From Thiohalomonas denitrificans (GTDB taxonomy: Bacteria; Pseudomonadota; Gammaproteobacteria; Thiohalomonadales; Thiohalomonadaceae), in contig NZ_JAENYR010000001.1 in the NCBI RefSeq assembly GCF_016841685.1, positions 4,591 to 68,590 on the forward strand: a DNA stretch of 64,000 nucleotides, given 5' to 3'. This document shows, piece after piece, positions 2,462 to 16,653 of the stretch. Every line of letters begins with the position of its first letter. Position 1 is the first letter of the stretch. Made by a program: the position numbers and the translations under genes. The notes under the pieces were generated by a model, which saw nothing but the letters and a program-made list of their open reading frames with translations, ran no database searches and had not been told where the DNA came from.

Positions 2462-3160
2462 TCAAAGCCCCTCAGTGTCCATCCCATGCGCTGCGAGCCA
2501 ACGCTTTCGCCGCTCGAAATCGGGGAGAGTACGCTCGACCCGCCGCCAGAACGCGGGGGTGTGGTGGGATTCATGTAGATGCTCTAGTTCATGGATCACG
2601 ACGTACTCGGCGACCGTCCGAGGCAGCAGGATGGTTTTCCAGTGGAAGTAGAGCCAGTTGCCCCTGCCGCAGGAGCCCCAGCGGTAGCCGAGGTCCTGGA
2701 CCTTTATGCCGCCGGGCTGTACCTCCATGCGGGGGGCGTGCTCGGCAACCTTATGCGATAGCCACTCGTAGCCGTGGTCGGTGTACCAGCGGATAAACTG
2801 GGAGCGGCCCTCAGAGGCGGCGAGTGCGCGGCTTAGGCGGAAGCGGCCGCCGACTAGCTTTAGCGATGCAGCGGGATCGTCCACCAGCTTGAGGCGGTAG
2901 CTGCGGCCGAGGTAAAGGAAACCCTCGCCGTCGACAAATTCCTTTTTCGGGATCGCGCGCTGGAGTTGGGCCTTCTCCGCCAGCTTGGTGTAGATCCAGT
3001 AGCGCTTCTCCCGCACGAATCTGCGCAGTTCGTCCTCATCGGTGCCACGAGGCGCCGCCAGGACCAGCTCGCCGCCGCGGTCGACGGTGATCTGCACCGT
3101 CCTTCGGCGGCGGCTCAGTCGCAGGTCAAAGGCGAGGTCGTCGACCTGGAATGCGCTCAT
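2462..3160 (-). CDS. YgjP/SprT-like zinc metalloprotease (DUF45)
   Basis: 232 aa; HELEHLHESHHTPAFW motif; RWGSCG; overlaps hsdR stop by 4 nt. Confidence 0.85.
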   Translation of the reverse strand: MSAFQVDDLAFDLRLSRRRRTVQITVDRGGELVLAAPRGTDEDELRRFVREKRYWIYTKLAEKAQLQRAIPKKEFVDGEGFLYLGRSYRLKLVDDPAASLKLVGGRFRLSRALAASEGRSQFIRWYTDHGYEWLSHKVAEHAPRMEVQPGGIKVQDLGYRWGSCGRGNWLYFHWKTILLPRTVAEYVVIHELEHLHESHHTPAFWRRVERTLPDFERRKRWLAAHGMDTEGL

Positions 3161-6100
3161 ACCTTAATCAGCTTTTCGTGGTTAGCCCGTGCCAGTTCCA
3201 TCAGCTTGTCTACGGTCGCGTCGAGCGTTTTTAGGGGAAGCAGGCGGCGATGGAACAGTTCTTCGAATAGGCGGCCTCTCAGGCGGTCCTGGTCGGGGAT
3301 ATGAGAGGGTTTCCAGAAGTCCGGGATCTTAATCTCCCCGACTATGGTGTCCACGACCTCGATTGTCGCCTCATTGAGGGCCGCCGCGGTGGTTTCGTCC
3401 GGTTGGGCCTCATCGCCGAGCTTGGCTTCGGTGAGCCGACGCAGGAAGGGCAGGTAGTGGGGCGGCAGCCCTGATGGTTCTTCGCCGGGGATCGGCTGAT
3501 CCTCCCGCAGTTCATGGATCAGCCCCTCGAAGGCCTCCACCTGGGCCTCCCACTGGTCCTCCAGGTTATGCAGCAGCTCGTTGAGGCGTTCGCTCAGCTT
3601 GCCGAACTTTACGGGGTCCTCATCCAGGTGCTTGCGAATATGAGAGCGGATGGCATGCTCCATCTCCGAGGCCTTGGCCCGGTCGCTGACCTGACGGCGT
3701 ACATGGGTGTCGAATTCGGCGTCGGTTAGCTGTACCGGCGGGATCTTCGGGTCGATACCGAGCGAGATCACGTAGTCGTCAATCAGCTTGCGGACCTTGG
3801 CGCCGACATCCTTGCCAAGCGCCGGGGTGTCCTTGTAGCGGTTGCGGGCCACGGCGTGAATATAGGCCAGCTTCCTGGCATCGGCGGTGAACTCCAGGCC
3901 CTCGGGCCGGGGTAGGACCTCGTCCAGGGACTGGGTGAACTGCTTGAGCTTGACCGTGAACTCCGCTCGCACCCGCTCATCGGCGAGGGCGGTCACCGCC
4001 TCCTCGATGTCGTCCAGGCTCTCGACCCCGTGGGCACGCAGCACATCCACCGCCCGCAGATGGCGGTCTCGCAGCAACGGGATTTCGTCTTTCAGGCTCT
4101 GGAGGGCCCCTTCCACATCTTCGGCGCTGTAGGCGGCCAGGGCGTCCTTCAGGTGGTTGGCGACACCATAGTAGTCCACCACGATGCCGTGCTGCTTGCC
4201 GTGCCCGGTACGGTTGACGCGGGCAATGGCCTGCAACAGCTCCGCCTCGCGGATGGGCCGGTCCAGGTACATGACGCCCTCGATGGGCGCGTCGAAGCCG
4301 GTGAGGAGCATGGATTTGACGATGAGAAAGGCGAGCGGGTCGGCCTTCTCCGGGTCCTTATGGGCCATCGGCCGCTTGAAGCGCTTGATATGGTCCTCCA
4401 CGGCGGCCCGGTCGCTCCACTTGGCCCAGCTCGGATCGTCATTGTTGCCGCCACTGATGACCACGGCGAACTCCAATCGCCCCAACCGTTCACGCTGGCG
4501 CCAGGCCTGGACGGCCGCCTGGACCCGTGGCGGCCGCTGCATCAGTGCTTCATCGTCCATGGCCTTATCGGCAGGGCTCAGGGTCATCGCCTCCTCCAGC
4601 AGCGCCTTGCGGGCCTGCTCGAAGTATTCCTGGTAGCGAACGGCCGCCCGGCGGCTGTAGGCCACTACTTGGGCCTTGTAGCCGTTGGGCAGGATGTGGG
4701 TGACGTAGTGGCGGAGCATGTCTGCCGCCTTCTCCTCGATGAGCTTGGGCGCCTCCAGGATCTGTCCCTTGGTAGCGTACTTCTTCTTGATCGCCTCCAG
4801 CTCCTCGCGGGTCCGCTCCCGGAACAGGTCCTCGAACAAATCATCGAGGCTGCCGCCCTCCTTGACGGCGCCGGTTGCGGTGCGGCCCTCGTAGAGGATC
4901 GGCACCGTAGAGCCATCGCGCTCCGCCTCCTTGATGGTGTAGCGGTCGATGAATTCCCCGAAGATATCGTGGGTGCGCTTTTTGTCGCCCATGATGATGG
5001 GCGTGCCGGTAAAGCCGATGCGGGCACAGTTGGGCAGGGCTTGGAGTAGGTTGGCGTGTAGGTCACCGGCCTGGGTGCGGTGGGCCTCGTCCACCATCAC
5101 CAGGATGTCCTCGCTCTCGTTGAGTACATCGAAGGGCTTGCTGACCTTGGGCGGCTTAACCGGAGCGTCCTCCGCGACCCGGCGACCCCAGCCCAGTGTC
5201 TCCTCCTTCATGGGGTAGGCCTTATCGTGCTCGCGGTACTTCTGGATGGTGGCGAACACCAGTCCTGGTCCGGGGCGCTTGACCAGCGCTTTCACCTTGC
5301 TGGTCTTCTTCGCCACCTCTACGGTCTCGCCGGCCAGGCTGGCGGTCTCCGAGAGCTGCTGTTGGAGGTCCTTGCGGTCGGTGATGACCACCACCTTGAA
5401 GCGGCGCAGGGCCGGGTCGGTGCGGAGCTTTCGTACCAGAAACACCATGGTCAGGCTCTTGCCGCTGCCTTGGGTGTGCCAGATGATGCCGCCCCGGCGG
5501 TCATGTTCGCCATCCTCCCGGCGGGTCTTGCCGCGCTTGAGGCGCTCGACGGCGCGGGTGACGGCACGGAACTGCTGGTAGCGACAGACCAGCTTCACGG
5601 TCTGGCCGCCCAGGGTCGTGAACAGGGCGTAGTGACGGATGATGTCGAGCAGGTTCGCCCGGTCCAGCATGCCGGCGATGAGCCGCTGCTGGCTGGAAAG
5701 CTGGCTCCCGCCCAGCTCGACCGCAATTTCCGCCTCGGTGCGGGGCTCCACCGTCTTCCAGTTCAAATAGTGCTCAAAGGCGGCGCTGATGGTGCCGACG
5801 CGGGCGTCGTCGAAGTTGGTGGCGATGAGAAACTGGTTGGTATGGAACAGGGCCGGGGCGCCCTCGTTCTCCTCCACCTCGAAGGCAGCTTTGCGCTGGT
5901 TGGAATAGCGGCGCAACTGGTCCACCGCCTCCGCAATGCCCTCGGGTGCGATGCGGCTCTTGCACTCGACAACCACCAGCGGAATCCCGTTCACTAGCAG
6001 GACGATGTCGGGGATGATGTGGCCCTTGGCGCTGTCGTGACCTGGCGGGCACTTCACCTTGTACTGGTTGATGACGGTGAAGCGATTATTCTCGGGGTGA

Positions 6101-6468
6101 ACCCAGTCGATGTACTGGATGGTCTGACCGCGGCCTCCGTCCCACTCGGGGAGACCTTCGACGGAGATCCCTTTTAGGAGCAGCTCGGTGGCCTGCTGGT
6201 TGGCCTCTATGAGCTTGGCGGCAGGAATACGGGTCAGGGCACCGACGGCCTGCGAGAGGTGCTCCTCGTCCAGCCAAGGCTCGCCCTTGTGGAGATTGAT
6301 GCGGCGGACCTGCTCGCGCAGCACCTCCTCCTGGATCATCTGGGCGAAGCTGTCGCGGGAGGTTACAGCCGGGTGCTCGACTGAACCCTCGATAGTCTTC
6401 CACCCCATCCCTTGCAGCTGCTGGATGAAGGGCAGTTCTACGTCCTTATATTCCGGTCCGCTCACCAC
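3157..6468 (-). CDS. hsdR: Type I restriction endonuclease subunit R
   Basis: 1103 aa; nuclease VVVECKS; Walker A TQGSGKSL; DEAH-like VDEAHRTQ; GFTGTP. Confidence 0.95.
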   Translation of the reverse strand: MVSGPEYKDVELPFIQQLQGMGWKTIEGSVEHPAVTSRDSFAQMIQEEVLREQVRRINLHKGEPWLDEEHLSQAVGALTRIPAAKLIEANQQATELLLKGISVEGLPEWDGGRGQTIQYIDWVHPENNRFTVINQYKVKCPPGHDSAKGHIIPDIVLLVNGIPLVVVECKSRIAPEGIAEAVDQLRRYSNQRKAAFEVEENEGAPALFHTNQFLIATNFDDARVGTISAAFEHYLNWKTVEPRTEAEIAVELGGSQLSSQQRLIAGMLDRANLLDIIRHYALFTTLGGQTVKLVCRYQQFRAVTRAVERLKRGKTRREDGEHDRRGGIIWHTQGSGKSLTMVFLVRKLRTDPALRRFKVVVITDRKDLQQQLSETASLAGETVEVAKKTSKVKALVKRPGPGLVFATIQKYREHDKAYPMKEETLGWGRRVAEDAPVKPPKVSKPFDVLNESEDILVMVDEAHRTQAGDLHANLLQALPNCARIGFTGTPIIMGDKKRTHDIFGEFIDRYTIKEAERDGSTVPILYEGRTATGAVKEGGSLDDLFEDLFRERTREELEAIKKKYATKGQILEAPKLIEEKAADMLRHYVTHILPNGYKAQVVAYSRRAAVRYQEYFEQARKALLEEAMTLSPADKAMDDEALMQRPPRVQAAVQAWRQRERLGRLEFAVVISGGNNDDPSWAKWSDRAAVEDHIKRFKRPMAHKDPEKADPLAFLIVKSMLLTGFDAPIEGVMYLDRPIREAELLQAIARVNRTGHGKQHGIVVDYYGVANHLKDALAAYSAEDVEGALQSLKDEIPLLRDRHLRAVDVLRAHGVESLDDIEEAVTALADERVRAEFTVKLKQFTQSLDEVLPRPEGLEFTADARKLAYIHAVARNRYKDTPALGKDVGAKVRKLIDDYVISLGIDPKIPPVQLTDAEFDTHVRRQVSDRAKASEMEHAIRSHIRKHLDEDPVKFGKLSERLNELLHNLEDQWEAQVEAFEGLIHELREDQPIPGEEPSGLPPHYLPFLRRLTEAKLGDEAQPDETTAAALNEATIEVVDTIVGEIKIPDFWKPSHIPDQDRLRGRLFEELFHRRLLPLKTLDATVDKLMELARANHEKLIKV

Positions 6469-6523
6469 GATGGCCTGCTTGTTATGTTCTATTTTGCCAA
6501 TGACCCTACCCGTGAAGAGCCGT

Positions 6524-7516
6524 TCAATCCAGCTCGCTCTCTGGCAGGTCCCACTCTAAAGGGCGCGGATCGCCGGTCTGGTAGAACTGGCGCACTACCT
6601 TGATGTAATGCAGAAAATCCTTGTTTTCGGTGGCGAGCCGGTTCGCGGTGTCCCAATCGATTTCAGTTCGCTCATGGGCCGGAACCAGGATCTGGCTTTC
6701 GGCAGGGTTTCCCGTGTTAAGGTGAATCAGGCCGACGCCATGCGCGGCGGAGAGCATGCGCAGCTCTTTCAGTGTCTCCGCCCCCTCCACTTCGGCCGCG
6801 ACCAGATAGCCGTAGTTGCCCCAGGACGAGTTGGAGACGGACTGGAAGAAGCACTCGCGCACATTAGAGCGGTTGAGCAGCAGTTTGACCTCGAACGACC
6901 AGAGCTTGGTTTGCTTGTCCGAGTACTGGTTGACGCAGCTCTTAACCTCCCGGTGCCACTCGGCACTGAGATCCTCCATGGCGACCAGGTCGGGGTAGAG
7001 CCACTTGTTGCCGTTTGGCCCCCGGCGATTGGCGGCACGCTTCTCGTCGATGCGCCGGGAGTAGATCCCGAACTCGGTCCAGAGATACTGCGAGAGCATG
7101 GGATAGAGCTCGTATTCGAGGAGCTTCTTCTTGCCCCCCTGGGTATATGAGGGCTCAACGTCGGGCGTCCCGCCGTGATCTTCCGCCGCAGCACCGGACA
7201 CTCCTAGCTGCTCGACATCCTCGACCTCCTGGGCGTCCGTCTTCGAGGTGAAATAGTATTTTCGGGGCCGCTCTTCCGTGGTCTTGACCTGCGGGGTTTT
7301 CTTCTGAATGTCAGGCCGAATGGCCCCGATCTCGGCCACGATTTGGGTCAGCAGTTCATCGTCGCTATTAAGGGTATCGCTGCGCTCCTTCTTCGCCCGG
7401 CACGCCTCGGGGTAGGTCTCGAACAGCCACGTCGCGATCTCCCTTGCGGTGAACTTCTCTTCCGGGTGCTCCTTGAGGAAGCGGGTGACCTTCTCTCTGA
7501 GTTTCAAGCCTGCCAT
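6524..7516 (-). CDS. COG2958/HrgA-like protein: N-terminal winged helix + putative PD-(D/E)xK domain
   Basis: 330 aa; N-term wHTH-like; YPDLVAME...WSFEVKLLL...FFQSVSNSSWGNYGYLVA. Confidence 0.6.
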   Translation of the reverse strand: MAGLKLREKVTRFLKEHPEEKFTAREIATWLFETYPEACRAKKERSDTLNSDDELLTQIVAEIGAIRPDIQKKTPQVKTTEERPRKYYFTSKTDAQEVEDVEQLGVSGAAAEDHGGTPDVEPSYTQGGKKKLLEYELYPMLSQYLWTEFGIYSRRIDEKRAANRRGPNGNKWLYPDLVAMEDLSAEWHREVKSCVNQYSDKQTKLWSFEVKLLLNRSNVRECFFQSVSNSSWGNYGYLVAAEVEGAETLKELRMLSAAHGVGLIHLNTGNPAESQILVPAHERTEIDWDTANRLATENKDFLHYIKVVRQFYQTGDPRPLEWDLPESELD

Positions 7517-7530
7517 TTGTTTCGCCCTGC

Positions 7531-8830
7531 TTATCCGTGTGCCAATTCGGCAGTTTCCAGTAGAGGGGTGACGCGGACGCGGCCGGTGAGGAGGTCGTCC
7601 ATGAGGCCCATTTTCTGGGTCATAAGTTTGCTCAGCGAACAGTTTTCACTTTTGAGCCTGACATTCATGCCGTAGAGGACTGAGTTGACCGTATGCTGTT
7701 CGTGTATAGGCGCCAGCGGGATCGGAAAGGCCTTCAATTGAGTGGAGTTGATGGACGCCAAATTCGTACTTTGTTTGGACGAGCGCAAAAAATAGGTCTT
7801 GCCACCTGGAGAAGCGCAGTAGGCTGCTAGGTAGTCCGATAGAAGCACGCTCGGGTCAGGCCGCACACGGAAAACGTGGTTTTGGTGGACGCAATCGGCG
7901 ATTTCGTTGCGCCAGACGGTGCCGCGCCCGAGTTTGTCGTAATCGCCCCCCTCGTTCATAAGTACATCGCCATCCTGGAGGCGGTACTTCTCGGCGTCCG
8001 AGGCAGTAACTCGGATGTACTTGATCTCGGAGAGGTCCAGGTAGCCGTCCTGTACGTTCGCCACCCGCAGGTACGGGACAAGCTTTGCCGAGAGTCCGGG
8101 AGATGCTCCGCCTAGCGTGACGCCACTGACGATTTCGGACAATCTGCCAAGGGGTGTTACCTCCCACTCCCTCGGAATCCGCCCCAAGGGCGACTCTTTG
8201 TAAAGCTGCGGGGCTTGGTCGGGGGTGGAGCGGAGTTGACCGTTTTGGTCGATGCCGCGGGTGAGCAGGTCGGTGAGCAGGCCCTGCTTGATGCGCTCCA
8301 GCTTGGCGATCAGCGCCTCGGTCTGGCGGATTTGGGTGTCCAGGGTGTCGAGGATTTGGGCGATTTTCTTTTGCTCACGCGTCGCAGGCACGGGGATAGG
8401 CAGTACCCCGAGCTGTTGTTGGTTGATCGAAGGCAACGCACCGACTTGAACGAAATCGGCGAAATCCACAGTAAGCAGCTGCCAGTACAGCCACTGGTCC
8501 GAGACATCTGCCTTGGCGGAGACAGCGACCACATTGTTGTCGAATAGGGAATCTTGGCCCAGCTCGCGACGGCGGTTCAAAAGCAAAGCTGCGCCAACCT
8601 TTGCGAACGCAATGCCGCCCTCAGGAGCAGGTTTCCAATTCAGCTTTTCTGCCAGCTGCCTACTGACATAGTTGTTGGCACTGCAAAGACGGCGCTCATT
8701 CCCCTCTCGGGACATATCGCTAACCTTGAAGAAGGGTAATTCGCCTTCTTGCTGGCCTTGGAACACTTCGGGGAAGGCGAAACCCGAATGAAAGTTGGCC
8801 ACCTCCGCTAGTGGTTTCACCGGCCAATTT

Positions 8831-8838
<8 letters not shown>
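7531..8838 (-). CDS. hsdS: Type I restriction specificity subunit S
   Basis: 435 aa, two TRD-like halves; [39 protein letters not shown] and [11 protein letters not shown]. Confidence 0.93.
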
Positions 8839-11293
<2,455 letters not shown>

Positions 11294-13582: not shown

Positions 13583-16381
13583 ATGTTTGATCCGCTGGAT
13601 TTGCGCCAAGTCGCACGAATAGAGGCAGTCCACCGCGGCTTTCTCTACCAGCACCTGTATGCGGCGGCGTGCCTGCTGGTGGCCGGCTGGCACGGCGTGC
13701 GATCAGTCACGATTGAATTCGACGAAGACATCGAGCTTGAACTCGACAACGGAGATCGCGTCTACGTCCAGGTCAAGACACGCTCGTCACCGCTGATACA
13801 CAGCGACATCGCCGGTGCGCTGGACCGATTCGAACGACTTCGCCTCGAACACCAGAAGGGACGACGTTCCGGTGGGGCATCCCTAGCGATAGTTGCCAAT
13901 GTGGCACCGGGACCCGAACTGCAGGAACGCCTGGATACCGGTGACCTTCCTGCAGGCGTAGTCCTACTCACGCCCGAAGCGAAAACAGCGCCGGCAGCGT
14001 ACTTGCCACCAGCCTGGACCAGCGTGGGCGACGCGATCAACTGGTGCTCGGATCAAGCTCGCGTGATACCCATGGCCACCCTCGAACCCGAGACGCTGGT
14101 TTGGAAGTTGGCGGGACGGGCGCTTCTGGCGGCGGCTGGTCAAGCACCCAGCCACATTTTCAATACATCCGATCTGCCCACGCTCTTTGAACAGCTCATT
14201 GTCCAGCTACAGCAGTTTCCCGTCCCGCCGGAGGTTTACCGCCCACTCGAGGATGAGCCGGCCTTGGACGGCGAGGCGCGGGTGCGCATCATCAGCGGGC
14301 ATTCCGGCGCGGGTAAGACCGCCTGGGCAGCGCAGGCGGCCCAGCACCTGGGAAGCGAGTGCGCCTACTACGACGTCGGTGACGTGCCGGGTCCCGCGAT
14401 CGCTGCAAGCCTGGTACGCGAACTTGCCGCTCAATGGGCGGCACCCTCCGTCGGTGGCTTGCGTCAGGTGCTTTTACCCGGATCTAGTGGCATCGAATCA
14501 TTGCGTGCCTTGGATAGGTTCCTTGGTGCAAACGCCACGAAGGCGCTTGTTGTGCTCGACAACGCACACCGGGTGCCCGCCAACGATCTGCGGATGCTGA
14601 TAGAGGCCACGCAACATCTGCGCATCGTGCTGTTGGCGCAACCCTCGCAATCGATCGCCGAGTTGGAAGCCACCATCGGCCTGCAGCAGGAAATCCTGCG
14701 CGGGTGGGGGTTGGACCAGGCCGCAGCAGAAGTACACGCCCAAGGTGCGCGAGCATCGGCCACAGAGCTCGGTCGGCTGTTGACCCTGACCGGTGGCCTG
14801 CCGCTGTACGTTCGGACCGCCGCTCAGCTGAGTGCAGCCCAGTACGACGGTGATGTGGCGGCGATGTGCACTGCAATCGAGGCCCACACGAACCTGGTCG
14901 AGACCGCGCAGGAATCGCTCCTTAGTCGCTCTTTCGACGCCCTGCCGGAATCGGCGCGCAACTGCGCTACAGTTCTGAGTCTCAGCGACGTGCCGCTGAG
15001 CGAAGAGGAATCCGCGAAACTGGCCAAGGCCACGTTCGGCCTCGACGCACCAGCGCTTGCCGCTGCGGTGCGGACACTGGAGCCTATTGGCATAGTGCGC
15101 GTCTACGGCGCCCGGCGGCTGCAGATCCATGACGCGTTTCGGGTGCTCGGCCTGCGCCGGTACGCCGAGATCGCACCGTCGCAAGCAACGGCAGGCCGCC
15201 ACGCGCTGAAGGAGCTGATCCTCGAGTCATTCGAGAAGGACAGCGAATACTCGCGCTTCCCTCTTTTCATTCGCACCCTCGTGGAGCTAGGCGAGCTTAA
15301 GCCATTGGTCGATATCGCGACCGAGGAGTGGTTCCATGAGCTCGGCGTGAATAGCGGTATCTGGGATGCGCTTGGGGCCGCAGCTTCGGACGAGAAGATC
15401 GACCCTGAGCAGCGGTTCTATGCGCTCGACGGGTTGGTGTTCACCGGAATGAAGTCAGGCGATGCGGCCAATATCGACGAGCAGCTGCGAGCCATGGAGG
15501 CTCTCGTTGCCAAGCATGACCTCGGCCCCCACGAGGAACTGGTGGTCTTGCTCAAGCGTATGTTGTTCGAGGCCAATCGCGGCAACGAGGCCGCAACGAG
15601 GCAAGCCATGGAGCGGGCGATGGCGTTCGCTCCTAACTCGTCTGAGCATCAGCGCATCCTGCGCTACAACATCGCATATGCCCTGTTCCAGCTTGGGCAC
15701 CATGCGGAAGCCGAAGGTATCGTTCGCGAACTGGTTGAGGAGTACTTCAACCTTCTGGGATTGACGCAGCAGGACATTTTCGGTGCCAGCAACGCTAAGA
15801 TTGCTAAGTTGCTGAGGCTAAGCCCCACACTGCATGATGACATCAAGCACCTAGCTGACTCGCTTGATGTTCTCGCTCGCGTCACCAACGCCCAAGGGCG
15901 GGATTCAGGGCTTGCTCGGGTGCATGCGGCGAAGCTCTACGGCATGGCTAACGCATTGGACTCCTTCGTGAATGTTAATCAGGACCTCGTCGACGAATTC
16001 CTCGGGCGCGGCGACTGCATCGGCGCGAGGCAGGTAATCGAGGAGCATCTGCTGCCGGTGGTTGTCGAACACAAGATGCTGGACAGGATTGTCCCTGTTC
16101 GAAGCCAATATGCCGTAGTTCTCGGCTATTGCGGTGAATACGATGCCGCCGACGCGGAGCTGGACCGGCTAGCCCCCTATCGGCCGGGACTCACCGAACA
16201 TCAGCGCGCCGAGATTGACAACCAGCGTGGGCTTGTGGCGCAACTGCGCCAGATCGGCATACGACCTGGCATGCCCGAGATTTCGAGGAAGCGTGCATTA
16301 CGCCGTATCAAGGTGGGGCGCAACGAGGCATGCCCTTGTGGGTCCGGGTTGAAATACAAGCGATGCCACGGACGGTCCTAG
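13583..16381 (+). CDS. Putative antiphage STAND NTPase: N-terminal Cap4/DUF4297-like nuclease, P-loop STAND core, helical/TPR-like repeats, C-terminal SEC-C zinc motif
   Basis: 932 aa; FDEDIELELDNGDRVYVQVKTRS; Walker A SGHSGAGKT; Walker B KALVVLDNAH; GLPL-like GGLPLYV; C-term RNEACPCGSGLKYKRCHG. Confidence 0.75.
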   Translation: MFDPLDLRQVARIEAVHRGFLYQHLYAAACLLVAGWHGVRSVTIEFDEDIELELDNGDRVYVQVKTRSSPLIHSDIAGALDRFERLRLEHQKGRRSGGASLAIVANVAPGPELQERLDTGDLPAGVVLLTPEAKTAPAAYLPPAWTSVGDAINWCSDQARVIPMATLEPETLVWKLAGRALLAAAGQAPSHIFNTSDLPTLFEQLIVQLQQFPVPPEVYRPLEDEPALDGEARVRIISGHSGAGKTAWAAQAAQHLGSECAYYDVGDVPGPAIAASLVRELAAQWAAPSVGGLRQVLLPGSSGIESLRALDRFLGANATKALVVLDNAHRVPANDLRMLIEATQHLRIVLLAQPSQSIAELEATIGLQQEILRGWGLDQAAAEVHAQGARASATELGRLLTLTGGLPLYVRTAAQLSAAQYDGDVAAMCTAIEAHTNLVETAQESLLSRSFDALPESARNCATVLSLSDVPLSEEESAKLAKATFGLDAPALAAAVRTLEPIGIVRVYGARRLQIHDAFRVLGLRRYAEIAPSQATAGRHALKELILESFEKDSEYSRFPLFIRTLVELGELKPLVDIATEEWFHELGVNSGIWDALGAAASDEKIDPEQRFYALDGLVFTGMKSGDAANIDEQLRAMEALVAKHDLGPHEELVVLLKRMLFEANRGNEAATRQAMERAMAFAPNSSEHQRILRYNIAYALFQLGHHAEAEGIVRELVEEYFNLLGLTQQDIFGASNAKIAKLLRLSPTLHDDIKHLADSLDVLARVTNAQGRDSGLARVHAAKLYGMANALDSFVNVNQDLVDEFLGRGDCIGARQVIEEHLLPVVVEHKMLDRIVPVRSQYAVVLGYCGEYDAADAELDRLAPYRPGLTEHQRAEIDNQRGLVAQLRQIGIRPGMPEISRKRALRRIKVGRNEACPCGSGLKYKRCHGRS

Positions 16382-16566
16382 GCAGCCGGAGCTGAATCGC
16401 CCGCCTTGCGCAAAGCGCTGGGCGAGCTCCTGCGCGGCATGCTTCGAAGCGTGAGAATTGACAACCGAAAGTAGGTTTGTTGCTCCGAACTGTCCCACCA
16501 GTGTCCCGTCAGGCGGCGGGAGATATTCGAGGATAGGGGCTAAGGCGCGTAACTTCTTGAAAAGGT

Positions 16567-16653
16567 TGGTGCCGAGGGTCGGAGTCGAACCGACACTGGG
16601 TTGCCCCAACCAGATTTTGAGTCTGGCGCGTCTACCAATTTCGCCACCCCGGC
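16567..16653 (-). tRNA. tRNA-Leu (anticodon CAA), CCA encoded
   Basis: Reverse complement gccggggtggcgaaattggtagacgcgccagactcaaaatctggttggggcaacccagtgtcggttcgactccgaccctcggcacca; 7-bp acceptor stem, CTCAAAA anticodon loop, long variable arm. Confidence 0.95.

Follow-up and report, generated by a model that had tools for sequence, protein, structure and literature searches.

A compact nuclease-STAND NTPase family with an optional SEC-C tail and a predicted role in defence

The nuclease effectors of Avs1-4 cut phage and host DNA upon sensing packaging proteins (PMC12931631). Avs3 carries a Cap4 domain, and DUF4297-HerA defence consists of DNA degradation and abortive infection (PMC11291478). 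Here we analysed a gene of similar layout in a 64,000-nucleotide stretch of Thiohalomonas denitrificans DNA (the window). Judged from its open reading frame, Pfam matches and an AF2 model, the gene (13583..16381, + strand) encodes a 932-aa protein made up of a Cap4-like nuclease, a STAND NTPase, TPR-like repeats and a SEC-C motif, and it is present as a single copy within its genome. The reading frame originally predicted is intact, with an ATG start, 932 codons and a stop at exactly the expected positions. Every motif quoted for it was found: FDEDIELELDNGDRVYVQVK (residues 46-65), SGHSGAGKT (238-246), VVLDNAH (323-329), GGLPLYV (404-410) and the SEC-C motif RNEACPCGSGLKYKRCHG (913-930). Since the motif residues are invariant across our conservation set, 64 full-length homologues from seven phyla, these motifs are not chance occurrences.

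A full-length AF2 model built on the 64-row family alignment had a mean pLDDT of 90.1 and a pTM of 0.76, and the only segments with a pLDDT below 50 were residues 1-3 and 899-910. When this model was compared with the PDB using Foldseek, the best match was the Avs3-terminase (PhiV-1) complex 8dgc (1.5e-14), with a second Avs3 match at 5.6e-12; PH0952 (6.6e-12), plant NLRs and resistosomes, NB-ARC, CED-4 and Avs5 (2.2e-4) were also matched. The Avs-like overall fold proposed for the protein, in which an N-terminal effector and a central STAND NTPase precede C-terminal repeats, is borne out by this top match. TM-scores to Avs3 were low (0.17-0.19), and we therefore take the likeness to be one of architecture and not of relative domain placement. 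An unlikely alternative is that the protein is a short form within the Avs3 group and, as Avs1-4 do, detects large terminase or portal. In its favour, the top fold match along the whole chain is to Avs3, and both proteins combine a Cap4-type nuclease, a STAND core and a TPR-like C-terminus. However, no sequence match to Avs3 was found in the PDB set, where 8dgc gave no phmmer or profile match at E<=1, and no Avs model was matched in PADLOC or NCBIfam, which we take to include such models. The protein also has 932 residues against about 2000 in Avs3, and PH0952 follows so closely in Foldseek that Avs3 may owe its rank only to being the largest PDB entry of the nuclease-STAND-repeat type.

Other libraries gave partial or generic matches. 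The NCBIfam search of the 932-aa protein returned no match above cut-offs; those below were confined to the SEC-C tails that other families carry and to a weak MalT-like one. PADLOC matched LmuA and PDC-M46A at the N-terminus and CBASS E2 proteins at SEC-C, in each case partially, and a BFVD fold search yielded generic AAA/TPR matches only. Close homology to a characterised defence protein, which would speak against the original prediction, was found in none of the PADLOC, NCBIfam and PDB sequence and profile searches.

The N-terminal PD-(D/E)xK nuclease domain spans residues 1-166 (13583..14080, +), as delimited by AF2, Foldseek and profile alignment. Modelled in isolation, it reached a pLDDT of 93.5 and showed the alpha-beta3-alpha-beta order of PD-(D/E)xK nucleases with a D ... 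QxK site. Foldseek with this domain alone matched HamA (2.9e-4), MspJI (2.5e-3), Avs3 (1.1e-2, probability 1.00), Cap4 (0.04) and also LmuA, and the domain profile aligned to LmuA (9ux7) and to 8zue across the GFxYQ helix and the ED-x-E...QxK site. The modelled topology and the Foldseek matches thus agree on a nuclease fold at the N-terminus, as had been predicted. Pfam Cap4_nuclease fell below its cut-off on the window protein (residues 17-81, E 7e-4) and was detected at E<=0.01 in 14 of 21 homologues, with a best E of 2.1e-8. Twelve residues of the domain are invariant in the 64 rows (H17, G19, Q23, E45, D47, E48, D49, E51, Y61, Q63, K65 and R95); they include the acidic part of the site, D47-E-D49-x-E51 (13721..13735, +) with E45 just before it, and Q63-x-K65 (13769..13777, +).

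The STAND NTPase and its following helical subdomain occupy residues 225-450 (14255..14932, +). Pfam AAA_22 matched residues 232-355 above its cut-off (E 3.7e-8), and a profile match to the TPR-STAND protein PH0952 (6mfv) covered positions 239-548 (E 1e-4), with Foldseek supporting the same assignment. In the 64-row alignment, S241, G242, G244 and K245 of Walker A (GHSGAGKT, residues 239-246; 14297..14320, +) are invariant, as are W248 and P407 of the GLPL-like TGGLPLYV (403-410; 14789..14812, +). Walker B (VVLDNAH, 323-329; 14549..14569, +) retains D326 in 64/64 rows and N327 and H329 in 63/64 each. To these we add a feature absent from the original prediction, a winged-helix region visible in the AF2 model (451-530; 14933..15172, +) with an invariant MHD-like H516-D517. 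The P-loop, Walker B, GxP motif and HD-bearing winged helix of STAND proteins are therefore all present, NB-ARC and CED-4 are among the fold matches, and sequence profile, fold and conserved motifs converge on the STAND core that had been claimed. An acidic second Walker B residue is usual in STAND NTPases, though not strictly defining. Here the motif reads D-N-x-H in 63 of the 64 homologues, which places Asn327 at the usual catalytic-acid position and suggests that ATP binding and exchange may be more important than hydrolysis in the switch.

The matches to PH0952, together with weak ones to MalT/LuxR, might instead point to a MalT-like STAND regulator or a housekeeping factor with no part in defence. 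We regard this as highly improbable, given that no DNA-binding effector was seen in the protein, that the nuclease site is strictly conserved, and that the family is patchily distributed (3 of 398 genomes of the phylum) and found in mobile contexts.

The C-terminal half of the protein is a TPR-like helical array and the presumed sensor (residues 531-891; 15173..16255, +), as indicated by Pfam, AF2 and conservation. The helical repeats that had been predicted appear in the AF2 model as an all-helical region over exactly these residues. Across the 64 rows, the nuclease and the NTPase have mean pairwise identities of 46% and 44%, against 34% for the winged helix and 36% for the repeats, where 10% of columns are at least 90% conserved; within the array, R691 and Y695 are invariant and K755-x-L757-A758-D759 nearly so. 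By this measure, the half appears rather less variable than would be expected of a fast-evolving recogniser. Used alone as a query for effector swapping, the STAND-TPR half gave the count of 3 of 398 genomes of the phylum and retrieved already-known prophages, with no sign of other effectors joined to this core.

The chain ends in a SEC-C motif (residues 912-931; 16316..16375, +), identified by Pfam (residues 913-931, E 2.4e-9, 37.3 bits against a cut-off of 20.4) and carrying CxC(x8)C[HC]. Because the linker at 899-910 has a pLDDT below 50, the motif is tethered flexibly. By pattern, SEC-C is present in 45 of 64 homologues and missing in 19, with at least eight gains or losses on the tree. 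The original prediction had treated this end as a defining or sensing part of the protein, and that is not supported: as a core sensor SEC-C is ruled out by its absence from 19 of 64 homologues and its disordered linker, and the sensor should therefore be the TPR-like half. Each of the three motif cysteines is kept in 45 rows, nearly all other rows being gapped, so the tail seems to be under selection where it is present. Homologues without SEC-C include a Streptomyces group and a clade made up of the loci L048, L049, L051 and L056 and the plasmid homologue L035. In this clade, a short convergent gene of unknown family lies about 20 bp downstream (L048:8896-9396, L049:12734-13189, L051:12760-13215, L056:12735-13190 and L035:10759-11214). 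Literature searches yielded no paper joining DUF4297 with SEC-C and, in full text on SEC-C in defence, nothing relevant; the Gifsy paper they returned has a ParA-like protein as its subject.

A first class-wide search was swamped by SecA-type matches through SEC-C, and later profiles were therefore built without it. Such a profile gave 80 loci kept from GTDB genomes, in Pseudomonadota, Actinomycetota, Bacteroidota, Acidobacteriota, Planctomycetota, Myxococcota and Thermodesulfobacteriota, and eight loci in IMG/VR. With tblastn, full-length homologues (33-47% identity) were found on 24 plasmid records, whose hosts were Escherichia, Klebsiella, Pseudomonas, Rhizobiaceae, Salipiger, Bosea and Streptomyces. 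In E. coli, 64 of 5426 genomes had a match, 51 of them with at least 80% coverage; outside E. coli the family is rare, as the count for the phylum shows. The family tree mixes phyla, with Desulfobacula, for example, placed within gammaproteobacteria; the family is spread horizontally. RefSeq in 2026 names the homologues 'SEC-C metal-binding domain-containing protein', 'ATP-binding protein' or 'dsDNA nuclease domain-containing protein', and a literature search by their accessions found no paper naming them. The family is apparently unnamed; an existing catalogue may possibly name it, given that the Avs models were without a positive control.

Two further observations concern decayed copies. Many Klebsiella/Raoultella plasmids (hits H29-H40) carry an unannotated relic of residues 3-119 only, the start of the nuclease, at 51% identity. 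Frameshifted or truncated homologues occur at the genome loci L098, L099, L100, L113 and L115 and in E. coli 214-4 (L138:12001-14798). Broken copies might be expected of a costly or toxic defence gene.

The mobile, defence-rich contexts claimed for the family were found. Homologues adjoin Tn7-like genes and Gabija-like pairs of an ATP-dependent nuclease with a UvrD helicase, lie inside a lambdoid prophage or beside a double-integrase element near hipAB, and are found near type IIG-like methylases (nine loci), type IIG R-M genes, GajA/B, DUF3732, AbiH and the Lamassu genes LmuA/B. In a PADLOC count of flanking genes against random regions, control helicases and one R-M locus also scored. Cap4/DUF4297-type nucleases also serve anti-plasmid systems, members of the family are often found on large conjugative plasmids, where competitor exclusion is possible, and the sensor half is fairly conserved. 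Instead of phage, the target might accordingly be foreign DNA such as invading plasmids, or a signal from damaged cells, but we hold this to be quite unlikely, as phage defence explains the prophage and Tn7-associated copies beside a Gabija-like pair no less readily.

In T. denitrificans, the gene is the last one on an island of about 17 kb between direct repeats of 158 bp (90% identical), which are likely the island ends. The right copy (16467..16624) holds the 3' part of tRNA-Leu(CAA) (16567..16653, -), the likely integration target, and the left copy lies on contig C152 at 4240-4395, about 195-350 bp before the window start. No integrase was recognised in the island, which therefore looks immobile. 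In a genome of the same genus (G369), this tRNA and the queA flank are likewise found, and another gene takes the place next to them on the side of the island. Within the T. denitrificans island lies a type I restriction-modification set, hsdR, hsdS and hsdM (3157..11293, -). A gene for a 330-aa protein with no significant family match lies between hsdR and hsdS (6524-7516, -), and a YgjP-like metallopeptidase gene (2462-3160, -) overlaps the hsdR end, positioned as if in the type I R-M operon. The same island contains an unnamed pair (755-2175, -), in which a DUF4325 STAS-like gene sits directly beside a 361-aa gene whose product, by eye, resembles a STAS/HATPase protein.

An obligatory partner gene across the family was rejected, because clustering of 1248 neighbour ORFs gave no gene common to all loci. 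The gene had been described as a single-gene system, and this stands for most loci, where it is stand-alone; for the family as a whole it may not be true, since a C92-family permuted papain-like peptidase gene is adjacent in a subset. This gene was found at ten genome loci (nine without one duplicate). It lies upstream on the same strand, within about 50 bp or overlapping, at seven non-redundant alphaproteobacterial loci (L083:8635-9915, L084, L080, L090, L091, L093 and L113, with L092 a copy of L091), and downstream in L052 and L124; it is also present on the R. etli plasmid L042 (6645-7913). Among the copies of this peptidase, His39, Cys124 and four Cys near the C-terminus do not vary, and it may act as a second component for some members of the family. 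That the window protein itself works with a partner such as this peptidase seems doubtful, however, because the C92 gene is absent from the window and from most of the family.

A different and similarly doubtful proposal is that these proteins are a STAND immune family in their own right, with an origin outside Avs, that would fire once while barely hydrolysing ATP, the SEC-C tail (and, in some lineages, C92) tying sensing to Sec- or ribosome-linked phage protein production. The single firing in this proposal comes from the D-N-x-H Walker B in 63/64 homologues, which would mean binding with little hydrolysis.

The reading we favour, with a probability of roughly 0.7, is that the gene encodes a largely self-contained innate immune sensor, in which ligand-triggered STAND oligomerisation would lead a Cap4-like nuclease to cut DNA and stop phage. 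In this mechanism, the TPR-like C-terminal half would keep the protein monomeric and inactive until a foreign protein of infection, by analogy a conserved phage protein, bound the repeat array and released it. ATP binding would then allow the STAND domains to oligomerise, bringing together the N-terminal Cap4-like PD-(D/E)xK domains so that DNA is cut, and this DNA destruction would stop the phage and probably kill the cell (abortive infection). SEC-C would serve as an optional metal-binding accessory tail and not as the switch. We infer the ligand class, the oligomerisation, DNA as the substrate and the abortive outcome because Avs and DUF4297-HerA serve as precedents.

If active, the family would offer a nuclease-STAND sensor of about 930 residues that occurs in E. 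coli on the chromosome, on plasmids and in a prophage, and, because homologues occur in that host, one easily tested against standard coliphages. It would also be a compact model of STAND switching of a Cap4-type nuclease, and its conserved D-N Walker B allows a direct test of whether STAND immunity depends on binding or on hydrolysis. None of the defence libraries searched appears to include the family, and surveys of defence genes would therefore under-count it.

Compared with described systems, the protein is closest in design to Avs3 (8dgc), with which it shares the order of nuclease, STAND NTPase and helical repeat sensor, a Cap4-type PD-(D/E)xK effector and the best fold match; it differs in being about half as long and in having a D-N Walker B and an optional SEC-C tail. 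Its mode of action is expected to resemble that of an Avs, but no sequence homology to a known Avs type was detected. HamA (Hachiman), LmuA (Lamassu), Cap4 (CBASS) and DUF4297-HerA have the same nuclease fold, GFxYQ helix and ED-x-E ... QxK site, but these are separate subunits or SAVED fusions, whereas in the window protein one chain carries both the nuclease and its STAND switch; neither LmuB nor HamB was found beside the window gene, and no neighbour is conserved across the family. PH0952 (6mfv) likewise has a STAND core followed by a TPR array, and no other structure showed a relationship to the NTPase half that could be detected by sequence, but at 641-653 residues in the PDB it is too short for a nuclease-STAND-TPR chain, and the sequence match is limited to the NTPase region. 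Avs5 (SIR2-STAND) is of similar size (833 residues in 9jap) with a compact repeat sensor, but its effector is a SIR2 NADase and not a nuclease. The SEC-C motif has the same CxC(x8)C[HC] as those of SecA (E 2.7e-6 to a SecA peptide structure), YchJ and CBASS E2 and, unlike them, forms a tail that is optional in a STAND protein of immune type. We place the family among the nuclease-STAND (Avs-type) proteins, as a variant of its own with a predicted defence function.
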